In this document: positions 2,022-43,605 of the stretch, piece by piece
How positions within the stretch are numbered: the first letter of the stretch is position 1
How the letters are laid out: each line of letters starts with the position of its first letter
Origin: Lactobacillus ultunensis DSM 16047
GTDB lineage: Bacteria > Bacillota > Bacilli > Lactobacillales > Lactobacillaceae
Reading direction: 5' to 3'
NCBI RefSeq assembly: GCF_001436305.1
Contig: NZ_AZFO01000017.1
Coordinates: 1 to 43,691 of the forward strand
DNA length: 43,691 nt
Notes under the pieces: generated by a model
Databases searched by the model: none
The model's input: the letters and a program-made list of their open reading frames with translations, nothing else
Told to the model about the DNA's origin: nothing
Made by a program: the position numbers and the translations under genes

Positions 2022-3791
2022 TTACTTAGCGTAACCAACTTGGTACCATAATTGGTGACCGTTGTTGTTTTGTGATGGTTTAGTTGAGTAGCCAGTCAAC
2101 TTACTGTTTACAGCATTAATGCTGTATGAGTTGCTCAATGGAACTACGAATGCTTGATCATTCATGTATTGTTGCCATTCATGGAATACCTTTACACGGT
2201 ATTTAGTATCAAATGACTTTTGTGAGTTCATTTCTTCAAGCAACTTGTTGTTTTCTGGAGTTGCAAAACGTTCGTAGTTCATTGGTGAAGTTTCACCGTA
2301 CATACTACCTTGTGATGGTTCAGAAGCTAATTGCCAACCAGCTTGGAAGAAGTCAATGTCCTTAGAATCATTTTGAACTTTGTCGTAGAATGAGTTAAAT
2401 TCCATCAAACGACCACCGGTTAACTTAACGTTAAGACCGATCTTGTGCCATTGTTGCAAGTAGTTTTGAGCAATAGCTTCAGCGTTTGGTGAACCTGACA
2501 TGGTTGCAAAGTGAAGTACTAATGGCTTGCCATTAGGTTGTACACGCCACTTACCCTTCTTCTTGTAACCAGCCTTGTCCAATAATTGGTTAGCTTTCTT
2601 AAGGTTGTAGTCATAGCCCTTAACTGAGCTATCGTGGTAAGCACCAAAGCCTTCAGGAATCAAAGTCTTGATATGGAAACTCAATCCTTGAGTATAACGT
2701 TTGTTAACTGCATCGACGTTCATTGCATAAGCAATAGCTTGACGTAATGACTTATTAGCAACCTTGGAGTCTTTATTCATTACGTTCTTGCCAGCCTTGG
2801 CATCGAACTTACCTACCTTGAAGCCAAGGTATGAATATGCTAATGGAACTTGAGCAACCCAGTTAACGTTCTTAGTATTCTTAACTTGTTGCCATTGTGA
2901 GTTAATTACGCTAGCAATATCGAACTTGTGACTCTTAATAGCTTGTGAAGCTGAGTTAGGACTAACTACTTGAATAACAACCTTGTTAAGCTTTGGTTTA
3001 CCTCTCCAGTAGTACTTGTTTGGAACCCAAGTTACTGATTGACCACGAACAAGCTTATCAAGCTTAAACGGACCAAAGTATAAAGGCTTCTTTCTAATTT
3101 GATCACATGATTGAAGCTTGTTAAATGGAACATCCTTTAAGTAATGGTATGGTGCAGCTGATTCCCAGAAGCAACCATTACCACTGAAGTACATACTTGG
3201 TTTCATTTGCTTAAAGTGAATTACAATGGTACGACCATTCTCGCCATCAGGCATTTCAATACCAGAAATAGTCTTAGCTTTTCCTTCGTGGTATTCCTTC
3301 ATACCTTCAATGTCTTCAAGAGTTGAATCATAACGTTGAGCTTGAGTCTTCTTGTTAGCCAAGATTTCGTATGGGTATTCAAGGTCCTTAGCATTTACTT
3401 GCTTACCGTCTGACCACTTAACACCCTTCTTAACAGTAATAGTTACTGTCTTGGCCTTACGATCAAGCTTCATAGTAGCAGCACCTTTATCATTAATCTT
3501 ATATTGATCATCAGTGTCAAACAATGATTCTTCACCTGGGGCAGCTACGCTTGAATCATAAGCTGAAGTAGATAATTCATCAGAAAAGATTCCAGTAAAT
3601 GGAGTATCTGTTTCCAAGGCTACTGTAACAGTACCACCTTGCTTGGTAGCTTTCTTTGGTGTTGCTGTTGGGAACTTCTTTGCTTCTTTAGCGTTGGAAT
3701 TATTATTTTGTCCACTTTTACCACAAGCTACCAATGCTAAGGCAGCAGCAGATACAACTCCTACGGAACCTAAAACTTTTGATAATTTCAT
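2022..3791 (-). CDS. oppA: Oligopeptide ABC transporter substrate-binding lipoprotein (OppA)
   Basis: SBP_bac_5 family lipoprotein that captures peptides at the outer face of the membrane for OppBCDF. The signal peptide carries the lipobox LVAC, with the lipidated cysteine at residue 23 of 589. Family blocks are present (KKGVKWSDGK near residue 120; QSVTWVPNKYYW near 250). It follows oppC, giving the order D-F-B-C-A known from lactic acid bacteria, but it is separated from oppC by a strong terminator and has its own promoter. This fits the usual need for more binding protein than permease. The ATG lies 7 nt after GGAGG. Its paralogue follows immediately. Confidence 0.95.
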   Translation of the reverse strand: MKLSKVLGSVGVVSAAALALVACGKSGQNNNSNAKEAKKFPTATPKKATKQGGTVTVALETDTPFTGIFSDELSTSAYDSSVAAPGEESLFDTDDQYKINDKGAATMKLDRKAKTVTITVKKGVKWSDGKQVNAKDLEYPYEILANKKTQAQRYDSTLEDIEGMKEYHEGKAKTISGIEMPDGENGRTIVIHFKQMKPSMYFSGNGCFWESAAPYHYLKDVPFNKLQSCDQIRKKPLYFGPFKLDKLVRGQSVTWVPNKYYWRGKPKLNKVVIQVVSPNSASQAIKSHKFDIASVINSQWQQVKNTKNVNWVAQVPLAYSYLGFKVGKFDAKAGKNVMNKDSKVANKSLRQAIAYAMNVDAVNKRYTQGLSFHIKTLIPEGFGAYHDSSVKGYDYNLKKANQLLDKAGYKKKGKWRVQPNGKPLVLHFATMSGSPNAEAIAQNYLQQWHKIGLNVKLTGGRLMEFNSFYDKVQNDSKDIDFFQAGWQLASEPSQGSMYGETSPMNYERFATPENNKLLEEMNSQKSFDTKYRVKVFHEWQQYMNDQAFVVPLSNSYSINAVNSKLTGYSTKPSQNNNGHQLWYQVGYAK

Positions 3792-13876: not shown

Positions 13877-14182
13877 TTATTTCATAATATTATGATGCTT
13901 GTCATCATCAGGAATTTCATCGGCCATTCTTTCATCAATTGGCGTATAAGCATACTCTGTAATCATTTCACCAAGCTTGGTTGGCAAGCCTAAATCTTGG
14001 TAAGTAACATTTCGAGCTAAGCCATTAATAGTGGCAACTTCTTTATTCTTTTTCTTGTCAAAAACATGAACATGATTCTTATGCATATAATCTTCAACAT
14101 TTCTCTTAGCACGATCAAGTCTTGCTTCATAACGACCGTTTTCAAAGTCAGCAACGTCTTTTTCAAAATCAGTATATTTCAT
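13877..14182 (-). CDS. Uncharacterised small acidic/basic protein
   Basis: A 101-residue soluble protein that I do not recognise. It is rich in charged residues, with an N-terminal helical stretch (FEKDVADFENGRYEARLDRA) and a C-terminal tail ending in DDDKHHNIMK; there is no signal peptide, membrane segment or metal motif. The start is ATG with GAGGAAGC upstream. It lies 46 nt after thiN and just before a strong terminator, so it is probably the last cistron of the rsgA-rpe-thiN operon. Codon use resembles its neighbours. Its function is unknown. Confidence 0.75.
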   Translation of the reverse strand: MKYTDFEKDVADFENGRYEARLDRAKRNVEDYMHKNHVHVFDKKKNKEVATINGLARNVTYQDLGLPTKLGEMITEYAYTPIDERMADEIPDDDKHHNIMK

Positions 14183-14228
14183 TTTGCTTCCTCGTTTCTA
14201 TATCTTTACTCATATTCTACACGCTTTT

Positions 14229-15571: not shown

Positions 15572-16462
15572 TCATTTCAAATACTCAGGCATACGACCTT
15601 CTGTAATCTCCATACGCATAGCCAAATAATCATCGTAGCGGCTTGGCATAATCTTGCCTTCTTCCAGCAATTTTTTAACTTCACATTTTGGTTCTTTTAA
15701 ATGCTGACATCCTCGAAACTTACAATTTTTGCTGGCACGTTTAAACTCAATAAAATAATTGCATAGCTCATTGATTTTAATTGGTGTCAGATCAATAGAT
15801 GAAAACCCAGGCGTATCTGCCAAAAAGCCTTTTCCTAATTTAAATAACTCAACTTTTCTTGTGGTATGCTTTCCCCGATTTAAACTAGTTGAAATAGCGC
15901 CTGTTGCTTGATTTGCGTCTTTTTTCAAATGATTAAGTAAAGTTGACTTACCTGCCCCAGATTGTCCAGCTAGAGTCCAAATCTGATCCTTATCAATCAT
16001 ACCCGGAATTTGCTTTTGTACGTCATGGTAATTGGTAAAAACTGGATATCCAATTTTTTGATAATAAGACAACAAATCTGAAATTTGTTCAAACTTTTTA
16101 TCATCGATTAAGTCAGCCTTCGACAAATAAATTGTCACACGCACTTTTTGCCAAGAAAAGAAGGTTAAAAATCGATCTAACAACTCCAAAGAAAAATCAG
16201 GCTCTATAGCCGAAATCACTAGTAAAACATGACTTACATTAGCTACAGCCGGACGACCAATTCGATTAACTCTTGGCAAAATCTTTACTAGATAACTCAT
16301 TCCTTTATCATCAATTTGAATTTCTACATGATCTCCTACCGCTGGTTTTTGCTTCTTTTGACGAAAAACGCCGCGAGCACGCGTTCTCACGATACCCGCA
16401 GCGGTTTCCACGTCATAATAACCAGCAATTAGACCAATAACGGTTCCTTCTGCTAGTTTCAT
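15572..16462 (-). CDS. rsgA: Small ribosomal subunit biogenesis GTPase RsgA
   Basis: Circularly permuted GTPase that checks late 30S maturation. The 296-residue protein has an N-terminal OB-fold (about 1-70), the G4-like SKAD at 114-117, the P-loop GQSGAGKST at 166-174, DTPGF at 216-220 and a zinc cluster with C247, C252, H254 and C260. The ATG is immediately preceded by the TAA that would end a full-length prkC reading frame, suggesting ancestral coupling with the kinase gene. In this sequence prkC stops 107 nt earlier. Confidence 0.95.
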
Positions 16463-16575
16463 TTATTTTGTTACCTTTTCATTTAAAATTGTTTCACCAT
16501 TACGAACGACTCTCAACTGTCCATTACCATTTTTAATAGAGAATGGAATTGAGAAGCTCATATCTCGCTTTATGT
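16463..16575 (-). pseudogene. Displaced C-terminal codons of prkC (frameshift remnant)
   Basis: The 107 bases between the prkC stop and rsgA are fully open in the frame one base off from prkC. After the last shared residues DYT they read IKRDMSFSIPFSIKNGN, then GQLRVVRNGETILNEKVTK and a TAA that abuts the rsgA ATG. Restoring one A in the sequence ACATAAAG joins both frames into one protein about 36 residues longer. This is what is seen; that it is a true deletion rather than a sequencing error is inference. Confidence 0.8.
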
Positions 16576-18489
16576 ATAATCACGATAAATATTGCTTAAA
16601 GAGTGATCATCGTCTTTGATATAAATCTGAACATGATCTCCCTTGCTCTCACTAGACTCACTAGATGAGCTACTATTATCTTTATCGTTATCTGGCTTTT
16701 CATTCTTATTGACATTGTCACCAACATAGTTAACTGTGAAAGTCTTAGTGATAGTGGTTTCTTTTTCCTTCTTTGGGCCTCGTGAAACCTTAATAGTAAT
16801 CGTTGAACCGCGATCTACTTTGGTCCCTGGACCTGGATCCATTGAAATTACCAAGCCCTTTTCCACATCATCAGAATATTCCTGATTTATCTGTAATGTT
16901 AAGCCGTGTTCTTTGGCATAATCTTGTGCACCCTTTAACGAATAGTTGCGTAAATCTTTTAACGTTACACTATTATTTCTTTGACGCGGAGATTTTCCCT
17001 TCGAAACAACCAAAGTAATCGTAGTCTGAGTTGGTTTAACTTCAACTCCAGCTGCAATACTCTGAGAAATAATGTCATTAGGTGGAATTTTATTAGAATA
17101 TTGATCTTCCCTAATTACATCAAAGCCTTGATTTTCGAGTTTTTCAGCTGCCTTATCATAATCATGACCAACCACATTAGGTACTTTGACCATGCTTGAA
17201 CCGCTGGAAACAATTAAGTTCACAGACTTCCCACGATTTACACTATTTCCTGCTGTCGGCTTTGAAGCAATAACATAACCTTTCTTAACATCATCAGATT
17301 GACGTCTAATAATCTTACCGACCTGCAAACCAGCTGCTTCTAATTTATTTTCTGCAGCTTTTTCAGTTATGTTTGTTACATCAGGTATATTTACGTCTTG
17401 TGGTTTCTTATTATTGCCGCTTAAAGCAAAAATCATAATAAAGATAATCAATCCAGCTGCAATAACTGAAAAGATCCACCACCATTTGTGGTCTTTAACA
17501 TTTTGCCAAAAACTCTTTTTCTCCTTAATTGGTTCCGCTTCAGCTTTTTCTTCTTTTTTAGGTTCTTCAGCAGATTCAGCTTTTTGTGGCTTAAATCCTG
17601 GCAAAACAATAGTTTTATCATTGCTATTACCATGATTCGGAACAAAGACAGGCTCATCACTACGTTCTGGATCAAGACTGCTATCAAGGTCAGCTTTCAT
17701 AGCTTGTGCAGATGCATAACGATCACGAGGATCTTTGGCTGTAGCTTTTAAAACCACGTTCTCTAAAGCTTGAGGAACGCTTTTATCCTTCTTTCTAATA
17801 GATGGGATTGGTTCTTGTGCATGTTTTAAAGCAATAGAAACCGGTGTATCTCCATTAAAAGGTACTTTTCCAGTAATTAACTCATAAAGGATAATTCCCA
17901 GAGAATAAATATCTGATTGCTTAGTAACCAGACCACCTCTTGTCTGCTCAGGCGACATGTAATGCACTGATCCCATTACAGAATTAGTTTGCGTAATCGA
18001 ACTTTGATTAAGAGCGACAGCAATACCAAAGTCAGCAATCTTAATATTGCCTCGCTTATCCATCAAGATGTTCTGTGGTTTTAAATCACGATGAATTACA
18101 TTGTGCTTGTGAGCAAGAGCAACTGCACTTAGGATTTGATCCATAATGCGAATCACTTCACGCAAATCAAGAGGGGAATTCTTACGAATATATTCCTTCA
18201 GATCTGGACCATCAACATATTCCATTACCATATATGGCAAACCATGATCTGTCCCAACATCCAATACTGATACAATGTTAGGATGACTTAATTCGCTTGT
18301 AGCTAAAGCTTCTCTTTGAAAACGTGCTTGCGTTTGTGGTTCATTTTGTAAATCTAATCGCAGTATTTTTACAGCTACTTTTCGCTGTAGAATAATATCT
18401 TCAGCAAGATAAACATTAGCCATGCCACCTTCACCCAAGGTGTCAATTATGCGATAGCGCTCACCAAGCAGATAACCTTTATCGATCAC
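16570..18489 (-). CDS. prkC: PASTA-domain serine/threonine protein kinase, C-terminally truncated
   Basis: Membrane kinase that senses muropeptides or lipid II and phosphorylates cell-division and wall-synthesis proteins. Visible are the glycine loop GEGGMANVY (residues 19-27), Lys41, HRDLKPQN (133-140), DFG (153-155) and MSPEQ; a membrane helix near 336-358; three PASTA repeats over about 362-570; and a Ser-rich linker. The start is GTG at 18487-18489 after AAGGAGG, overlapping the phosphatase gene by 11 nt. The final domain is cut: a stop follows IYRDYT, and the rest continues in another frame. Kinase, membrane and PASTA parts are intact, so activity may remain. Confidence 0.93.
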   Translation of the reverse strand: MIDKGYLLGERYRIIDTLGEGGMANVYLAEDIILQRKVAVKILRLDLQNEPQTQARFQREALATSELSHPNIVSVLDVGTDHGLPYMVMEYVDGPDLKEYIRKNSPLDLREVIRIMDQILSAVALAHKHNVIHRDLKPQNILMDKRGNIKIADFGIAVALNQSSITQTNSVMGSVHYMSPEQTRGGLVTKQSDIYSLGIILYELITGKVPFNGDTPVSIALKHAQEPIPSIRKKDKSVPQALENVVLKATAKDPRDRYASAQAMKADLDSSLDPERSDEPVFVPNHGNSNDKTIVLPGFKPQKAESAEEPKKEEKAEAEPIKEKKSFWQNVKDHKWWWIFSVIAAGLIIFIMIFALSGNNKKPQDVNIPDVTNITEKAAENKLEAAGLQVGKIIRRQSDDVKKGYVIASKPTAGNSVNRGKSVNLIVSSGSSMVKVPNVVGHDYDKAAEKLENQGFDVIREDQYSNKIPPNDIISQSIAAGVEVKPTQTTITLVVSKGKSPRQRNNSVTLKDLRNYSLKGAQDYAKEHGLTLQINQEYSDDVEKGLVISMDPGPGTKVDRGSTITIKVSRGPKKEKETTITKTFTVNYVGDNVNKNEKPDNDKDNSSSSSESSESKGDHVQIYIKDDDHSLSNIYRDYT

Positions 18490-19234
18490 TGCCTTCGTCC
18501 TCCTTGTTCCAAAGTAGGCAGACGGTAATATTATCACCACCACCTAATCGATTAGCTTCGCTAATTAATTTATTGCAACGCTCTTTTAAACTTAATTCCT
18601 TGGTTGCTAAAATTTGCTGGATTTGAGGATCACTGAGTGAATTGGTCAAACCGTCAGTACAAAGCAGAACAATATCATTATCGGCCAATTTAATTTCATC
18701 AAATTCTGGATCTATCGTACTAGAAACTCCTAATGCCTGAGTAATGATATTCTTTTGAGGATGATGCTTAGCTTGTTCTTTAGTAATCTGACCCATTTTT
18801 ACTAGCTCATTAACTAAAGAATGATCTTCAGTTAATTGCACAAATTTACCTTCAGAATAGCTGTAAGCGCGAGAATCACCCAAATGAGCAATTAATGCTT
18901 TGTTCTCAAAGGCAAAAGCCAAAACAATGGTTGTTCCCATCCCATTAAGATCAGGGAACTTATCAGCGGTCTTCAAAATAGTTTCATTTTCAGAATTCAA
19001 TTGTACATCTAACCACTTATGAGCAATATTGGCATCTGTAAAATCAGTCGTACCAAAATTGTGTCCCAGATGAGTGACTGCCATAGTAGAGGCTACGTCC
19101 CCACCTTGATGACCACCCATACCATCACAAACGATAGCTAAAGTGATCCCTTTGCGATTTTTAAAAACTTGTACAAAATCTTGATTGCTTTTTCGTACCT
19201 TACCGATACTTGAAGCATATGCTGTTTCAATCAA
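18479..19234 (-). CDS. stp: PP2C-family protein serine/threonine phosphatase
   Basis: Removes phosphate from PrkC and its substrates. The 251-residue protein carries the PP2C metal motifs CDGMGGHQGGD, GDSRAY, CTDGLTNSL and GGGDNITVCLL. I chose the TTG at 19232-19234, giving MIETAYASSIGKVRKSNQD, which is the usual family start; it lies 4 nt after the rsmB stop with GAGG upstream, and the longer frame would only overlap rsmB. It overlaps prkC by 11 nt, the classic phosphatase-kinase pair. Confidence 0.94.
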   Translation of the reverse strand: MIETAYASSIGKVRKSNQDFVQVFKNRKGITLAIVCDGMGGHQGGDVASTMAVTHLGHNFGTTDFTDANIAHKWLDVQLNSENETILKTADKFPDLNGMGTTIVLAFAFENKALIAHLGDSRAYSYSEGKFVQLTEDHSLVNELVKMGQITKEQAKHHPQKNIITQALGVSSTIDPEFDEIKLADNDIVLLCTDGLTNSLSDPQIQQILATKELSLKERCNKLISEANRLGGGDNITVCLLWNKEDEGSDR

Positions 19235-19238
19235 AAGT

Positions 19239-20570
19239 CTAACCTCGCATTTTAAATTTTGCAATGAAAAATCCATCATTGCCATTTTGATCAGGCATAA
19301 TCTTTAACATCCCGGTCTTAGATTCTAATTTACTCAACTTAAATGGTTTCAATACAAACTGTGAATGCCTCTGTAAAAACTTTTTAACTACCTCTTCATT
19401 CTCTTCCATTGAAATAGAGCAAGTCGAATAAACTAATTCGCCATTTTTTTGTAGAGGTACGCTAACAGAATCCAGAATCGCTAATTGAATTTTTTGTAAA
19501 CTATGCAAATCCTGAAGACTCTTTGTATAACGTATTTCTGGCTTGCGTCTTAGTAGTCCTAAACCAGAACATGGTGCATCAACTAGGATCTTGGTAAATT
19601 CACCTTTATTAAAAATCTTTCCAGCTTTGCGTGCATCACAAGCTTGAGTTTTAATCTTGTCTGCTACATGCATTCTCTTAGCATTTTCTGCAACCAGACG
19701 TAACTTTTTCTCATGAATATCTAGCGCTATTACGTCACCATCTGCAAGATTTTCTGCTATTTGAACAGTCTTACCACCTGGTGCACTACAAGCATCAAGA
19801 ACATGTTCCACTTGCGTTTTATCAAAATCGAAAGCCTCTACCACTAAGCTAGCGGCTTCATCTTGAATTGTCAACTGACCTTTTTTAAATAAATCGCTTT
19901 GACCAATGCCACCATGTTTCAAAGTTACATCATGATCTGATAAATTTGACCACTTAGGCTGGTAACCCTCATCTTTTAATCGCTGAAAGACCTCAGTTGC
20001 ATTGACTAATGAAGAAATGCGTACGCAATTTTTAGCTGGTTTATTAATACTGGTTAAAATTGATTGCGTACGTTCGATGCCCAAATTTTTCACAAAGTAT
20101 TTAACCAACCACTCCGGCACGCTTTCTTTCACGCTAAGATATTCTAACTTATTGTTTTCTTTAGGCAAAATTACGCCTCGTCGAATAAAAGAACGCAGAA
20201 TTCCATTAACGATGCGATAACCAGAAGAATGATGTCTACCAAACTGTTTAGCTAGCTTATTAGCTTCATCCAAAACTGCCCGATTAGGTACTTTATTTAA
20301 GAAAATGATTTGATAAAGCGACATCAATAATAAAGGATTAATATATCTTTCCGTTAACTTGGTTCTAATTAATCCTTTCAACTGATATTCCAAGAAAAGA
20401 CGATACTGAATCGTACCGTAAACGATTCTTGTTGCTAAATTCTGATCAGCAACTGAAAGATTTGAATTTTTAAAGCTGTTATTCAAACTAATATTAGAGT
20501 ATGAACCATCCTCTAAAACTTTAATTAATGTTGCTAAGCTGATTGCACGAGCACTCTTACTTGTCGACAA
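19239..20570 (-). CDS. rsmB: 16S rRNA (cytosine-967-C5) methyltransferase
   Basis: Methylates C967 of 16S rRNA. It has an N-terminal NusB-like RNA-binding domain (about residues 1-140) and a Rossmann methyltransferase with LDACSAPGGKT, VDAPCSGLGLLRRKPE and the second cysteine motif STCS. The preferred start is TTG at 20568-20570, 6 nt after AGGAG, overlapping the fmt end by 14 nt (443 residues); an ATG 12 codons earlier has no ribosome site. It sits between fmt and stp, as is standard. Confidence 0.93.
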   Translation of the reverse strand: MSTSKSARAISLATLIKVLEDGSYSNISLNNSFKNSNLSVADQNLATRIVYGTIQYRLFLEYQLKGLIRTKLTERYINPLLLMSLYQIIFLNKVPNRAVLDEANKLAKQFGRHHSSGYRIVNGILRSFIRRGVILPKENNKLEYLSVKESVPEWLVKYFVKNLGIERTQSILTSINKPAKNCVRISSLVNATEVFQRLKDEGYQPKWSNLSDHDVTLKHGGIGQSDLFKKGQLTIQDEAASLVVEAFDFDKTQVEHVLDACSAPGGKTVQIAENLADGDVIALDIHEKKLRLVAENAKRMHVADKIKTQACDARKAGKIFNKGEFTKILVDAPCSGLGLLRRKPEIRYTKSLQDLHSLQKIQLAILDSVSVPLQKNGELVYSTCSISMEENEEVVKKFLQRHSQFVLKPFKLSKLESKTGMLKIMPDQNGNDGFFIAKFKMRG

Positions 20571-34911: not shown

Positions 34912-35020
34912 CACCTCCGAAAAAATACTTAGACTCGCCGAACTGGGGTGCTCCTTACCCAAGAAGACTTCTAACCTCTAGCCGTGCGGTTGCAGATGTG
35001 GAGGTCTCCACAAATACAAC
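34912..35020 (-). promoter_or_regulatory. L21 leader RNA (ribosomal protein autoregulatory element)
   Basis: The roughly 100-nt untranslated region between the promoter and rplU is unusually GC-rich for this genome and folds. A 7-bp hairpin (TGTGGAG with CTCCACA) lies near its 5' end, followed by a conserved-looking core with the CTTGGGT/ACCCCAG pairing and GTTCGGCGAG. Position and form match the Firmicutes L21 leader family; L21 binding is family knowledge. Confidence 0.8.
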
Positions 35021-43531: not shown

Positions 43532-43605
43532 GGTCTGGTAGCTCAGCTGGATAGAGCAACAGTCTTCTAAACTGTGGGTCGTGGGTTCGAATCTCACCCG
43601 GATCA
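43532..43605 (+). tRNA. tRNA-Arg (anticodon TCT)
   Basis: A full cloverleaf can be drawn: acceptor GGTCTGG with CCGGATC (two G-U pairs), D stem GCTC/GAGC, anticodon stem ACAGT/ACTGT with loop CTTCTAA (TCT at 43566-43568), T arm GTGGG-TTCGAAT-CTCAC and discriminator A. It decodes AGA. CCA is not encoded (CTA follows), so it is added after transcription. Confidence 0.95.

Follow-up and report, generated by a model that had tools for sequence, protein, structure and literature searches.

The window, which is the whole 43,691-nucleotide stretch of DNA analysed here, carries the kinase gene prkC on its reverse strand between the phosphatase gene stp and rsgA (Table 1). The prkC product was assigned to the Stk1/PrkC family of PASTA kinases because the NCBIfam model NF033483 matched above its cut-off and a kinase domain and three PASTA repeats were found. 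A complete Ig-like C-terminal domain is no requirement of this model, whose match stopped at residue 581 of 651. A hydrophobic membrane-type segment was also read by eye from the sequence. The longest open frame of prkC starts at 18543. The start codon would be the GTG at 18489, with an AGGAGG upstream of it and the proteins of relatives starting to align there. Promoter-like sites in the window were at chance level (25 versus a mean of 24.5 in shuffles). Terminator-like sites numbered 8 versus a mean of 3.9 in shuffles, and none of these 8 was located between prkC and rsgA.

Table 1. Features of the prkC locus in the window.
Feature	Positions	Strand	Evidence
stp, PP2C phosphatase, upstream of prkC	18479..19285	-	NF033484, 297.5 bits (cut-off 230)
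prkC as present, 639 aa, Stk1 family PASTA kinase	16570..18489	-	NF033483, 679.6 bits (cut-off 450)
Protein kinase domain	17692..18456	-	PF00069, E 9.4e-60, residues 24-278 of the frame 16570-18525
PASTA repeat 1	17203..17394	-	PF03793, 61.5 bits
PASTA repeat 2	16999..17190	-	PF03793, 65.3 bits
PASTA repeat 3	16783..16968	-	PF03793, 66.2 bits
Ser/Asp-rich linker and first part of Ig-like domain, still in frame	16580..16770 (left edge approximate)	-	Alignments to relatives and to 3PY9
Overlap with both frames open; frame lost at its upstream edge	16570..16579	-	Frame scan, relatives' tails
Displaced second half of Ig-like domain (38 codons plus TAA)	16463..16579	-	Relatives' tail profile, 82.6 bits, E 4.1e-23
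rsgA, ATG adjoining the TAA of the displaced frame	15572..16462	-	TIGR00157, 213.6 bits (cut-off 100)

The prkC frame ends at a TAA (16572-16570, reverse strand), and the 107 bases that separate this stop from the ATG of rsgA form an open stretch in the adjacent frame. This displaced frame runs open from 16579 to a TAA (16465-16463) that is directly followed by the rsgA ATG (16462-16460). Both the open stretch behind the stop and the contact between TAA and ATG had been described in an earlier note on this DNA, and the coordinates agreed with it. The profile of relatives' tails, which gave the score listed in Table 1 for the displaced frame of the window's genome, matched the upstream frame with 31.6 bits (E 3.4e-7). 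The 674-residue proteins of two relatives, G003 and G005, followed frame -3 through residue 636 and frame -2 from residue 637, with the switch at 16579. The 676-residue protein of G010 showed the same frame switch at residues 638/639. For all three proteins, the alignment stayed in a single frame as far as 16579 and continued in the next one down to 16466. A chance open frame was ruled out because the displaced frame matched the relatives' tails in both the profile search and the protein alignments. The displaced frame represents the genuine 3' end of prkC, as the tails of the relatives show. The Pfam search of the 32-residue downstream ORF returned 0 families.

The earlier note had proposed that a one-base frame break truncates prkC, and this was supported in that the relatives encode the tail in a single frame. 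However, the missing base was not found to lie inside ACATAAAG, where the note had put it. The relatives read NIYRD-LYIKRDM, of which the part through Tyr-Arg-Asp is encoded by the upstream frame and the next residues by the downstream frame, so the base is missing upstream of ACATAAAG. The alignment places the loss in the codon directly after Tyr-Arg-Asp, a few positions upstream of that stretch. The break is located about 16 kb inside the 43.7 kb contig, far from the contig ends. The longest run in the 43 bases inspected around it was 3, and there was no long homopolymer.

The lost part was compared with known structures. A family-wide profile, built from 13 tails from across the family, matched residues 207-289 of PDB 3PY9, the ectodomain of S. 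aureus PrkC (Stk1), with E 8.2e-13. A profile of genus tails alone gave three PDB matches up to E 10, with no PASTA kinase among them, and Pfam on the ectodomain of a relative returned PASTA only, with the Ig-like domain unseen. The 3PY9 ectodomain consists of three PASTA repeats and then a fourth, Ig-like domain, and this layout is shared with the window's prkC. In contrast to 3PY9, the window's protein stops at a point that corresponds to about residue 252. Its last native residue falls on that residue of the chain, with 46 of the 83 aligned positions kept and 37 lost. Past the break point, the relatives' proteins continue for 38 residues. By the match to 3PY9, these 38 lost residues make up the latter half of the fourth, Ig-like domain found in PASTA kinases. 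A complete single-frame Ig-like C-terminal domain, as in S. aureus PrkC and in the genus, was not found in the window's prkC. The match to 3PY9 and the single-frame tails of relatives supported the earlier statement that an extracellular C-terminal domain follows the PASTA repeats. The statement that this domain was removed was correct as to truncation, but only about half of the domain was lost. In a passage of the review PMC3601408, the fourth domain is presented as an Ig-like fold that is incomplete and may be able to bind peptidoglycan.

The genus tail profile, built from the tails of ten relatives, was run on 75 Lactobacillus genomes, and the tail was present in 72. It was uninterrupted by a stop in 71 of these and was split over two frames only in the window's genome. 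The genomes without a match (G041, G046 and G067) were 85, 59 and 54% complete, respectively. The earlier note had asked whether relatives all stop at the same place, and this was not seen. Such a shared end was ruled out because the relatives inspected encode ...NIYRDLYIK... in one frame and the tail is unbroken in all 71 other genomes that have it. The PrkC proteins of other Lactobacillus, such as L. kefiranofaciens ATCC 43761 (L040), shared with the window's prkC the gene order to rsgA and the domains through Tyr-Arg-Asp, and they differed from it in having the tail in one frame. Tails were extracted for 33 of the 34 other loci (L007-L040), with L027 missed by the search motif; L036-L040 duplicate genomes already present in L007-L035. 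In the family sample, 185 of 301 genomes, the window's genome included, matched the Lactobacillus tail profile. The other 116 gave no match; their PASTA kinases may lack the Ig-like domain or may have diverged. The searches turned up no further genome of the species, although records that closely resemble the window's may have been omitted from part of the collections searched. A 28-base flanking piece gave 0 matches to viral contigs.

Frame changes in prkC were also observed elsewhere. There were two in G029, one in G255 (L144) and several in G357 (L145), the last two judged by eye from translations; G357 is 91% complete with 8% contamination. As in the window's genome, prkC was split by frame changes within a single assembly in each case, whereas the breaks in these three genomes were located upstream of the tail. 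Single assemblies with a broken prkC were thus not rare, which weakened the case for the window's prkC being special.

The age of the break was estimated from the displaced frame. The nearest relative by DNA at this site was G029, with 89% identity over 161 bases. The displaced frame differed from that of G029 by 20 bases in 117, with 1 residue changed. Compared with G005 (L010), 21 bases differed, and 18 of these differences fell in synonymous codons. Only 1 of 38 codons, with the stop counted, was changed in meaning, versus 39 of 219 upstream codons. Compared with G003 (L007), 3 of 38 codons were changed in meaning. An old pseudogene remnant was ruled out because no decay was seen behind the break (1 of 38 residues changed versus G029 despite the 20 base differences). 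These comparisons indicated that selection acted on the displaced frame over almost the entire divergence. The break is consequently either recent or not real.

Frame breaks were then counted in a sample of 299,025 bases of the window's genome, G000 (the window and contigs C1 and C18, 13.8% of the genome). After inspection, four breaks were found, each of them in comparison with G003 (210 orthologous ORFs) as well as with G005 (218). One was the break in prkC. The other three, named from Pfam matches of the relatives' copies, were in genes for an MFS transporter, a DAGK/YegS-type lipid kinase and a GntR/UTRA regulator. The transporter break was near the gene end, beside GGG (L109, about 14180-14190; G000 C1, about 74185). 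The lipid kinase break was at an A6 run (L113, about 10755; G000 C18, about 90757), and the regulator break was at an A7 run (L105, about 5440; G000 C18, about 45440). All three were again seen against both relatives. Some candidates had been dropped before the counts. As G000 breaks, these were G003 ORF win|11071, which lies antisense to the leader region of L21; G005 ORF a|38227, with a switch upstream of the conserved start; and G005 ORF a|142707, with a junction spanned by the G000 ORF. As breaks in G003 or G005, they were ORFs C1|42434 and C18|116547, which switched in both near the start, and C1|128480, which matched a non-syntenic G003 stretch. In the reverse comparison, 3 candidate broken genes were left for G003 (of 208) and 5 for G005 (of 209), as counted from scan rows not individually inspected. 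The placing of the four breaks in G000 is backed by the agreement of G003 and G005. The number of breaks in G000 was similar to that in these two single-contig genomes. Within the window, there was 1 break in G000 versus 5 switches in 4 genes, rsgA included, among the 42 window orthologues in G029. An error-rich genome was unsupported by this sample. The window's genome does not look like an error-rich assembly, and a single isolated error is possible. In G029 (contig C31, L164-L169), there were many frame switches, so its two prkC breaks were probably assembly errors.

Based on the above results, prkC probably carries a recent strain-level deletion of one base in the codon after Tyr-Arg-Asp, private to this genome among those compared. 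The unbroken tail of the 71 other genus genomes and the near-perfect displaced frame versus G029 and G005 were consistent with a real deletion. The few breaks in the genome sample and a site that is neither a long homopolymer nor near a contig end also argued for it. However, a tail conserved in 71 of 71 genomes is an unlikely place for a natural break.

A base-call or assembly error, in which prkC is intact in the organism and one base was lost in the draft assembly of 105 contigs, has an appreciable but smaller chance of being correct. The nearly unchanged displaced tail is predicted equally by such an error, and broken prkC frames were present in the error-rich G029 and in G255 and G357. 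In addition, the other three sampled breaks at or beside short homopolymers (A6, A7 and GGG) follow the pattern of some sequencing methods. The low and relative-like number of breaks and the position of the prkC site, on the other hand, argued against it.

Other explanations fared worse. It is very unlikely that a lineage is shedding its Ig-like cap, which would leave the PASTA repeats as the kinase's only means of reading the cell wall and make this a natural deletion experiment on a poorly understood fourth domain. A fixed functional shortening, with the whole species having a PASTA kinase of reduced C-terminal domain, is hardly probable. The searches yielded no other genome of the species that could speak against it, but 1 changed residue versus 20 base changes in the comparison with G029 points to a break of short standing. 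Synthesis of a full-length protein from the broken frames by programmed ribosomal frameshifting or transcriptional slippage would fit the conserved displaced frame but was rejected as very unlikely. The overlap of the two frames is only 10 bases long, there is no XXXYYYZ slippery heptamer and no run longer than 3 within the 43 bases, and none of the 71 other genus genomes that have the tail shows the split arrangement.

If the one-base deletion is real, the frame would shift after the conserved Tyr-Arg-Asp of the Ig-like domain, and translation would stop two codons later. The predicted short kinase would retain the catalytic domain, the membrane-type segment, the three PASTA repeats and roughly the N-terminal half of the Ig-like domain. 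This half domain would probably fold improperly. Kinase activity and PASTA binding may be largely retained, and any defect would be mild and in envelope sensing. In addition, the prkC stop would lie 107 bases before rsgA and no longer touch it, which could weaken translational coupling. An excerpt of PMC5786024 reports that B. subtilis GFP-PrkC forms ending, by construct name, after PASTA2, PASTA1 or the membrane segment were found at septa and poles. The same short forms were autophosphorylated in vivo, as reported in that excerpt, which suggested that such a truncation can be tolerated. By this analogy, the short kinase would be expected to remain functional, and any defect would concern sensing. 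However, the localization of PknB and StkP in other bacteria needs the extracellular part, according to the same excerpt, so the B. subtilis analogy may fail.

The prkC break is ordinary, being a recent mutation or a sequence error, and no established picture is changed either way. A real break would be a natural truncation affecting a domain of unsettled role, in a kinase that otherwise looks functional. The strain compared with full-length isolates would then be a test of the fourth domain, for which the passage of PMC3601408 suggested peptidoglycan binding. If it is an error, annotation would report a nonexistent short PrkC. Among the literature matches listed, there was no report of such a PrkC truncation.

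Elsewhere in the window, two adjacent genes on the reverse strand (49-1815 and 2025-3791) encode family 5 solute-binding proteins (SBP_bac_5), and each matched the orthologues of the other at about 65-67%. The only Rfam matches above gathering score in the window were a ribosomal protein L21 leader at 34921-35001 on the reverse strand and a tRNA gene at 43532-43605 on the forward strand.
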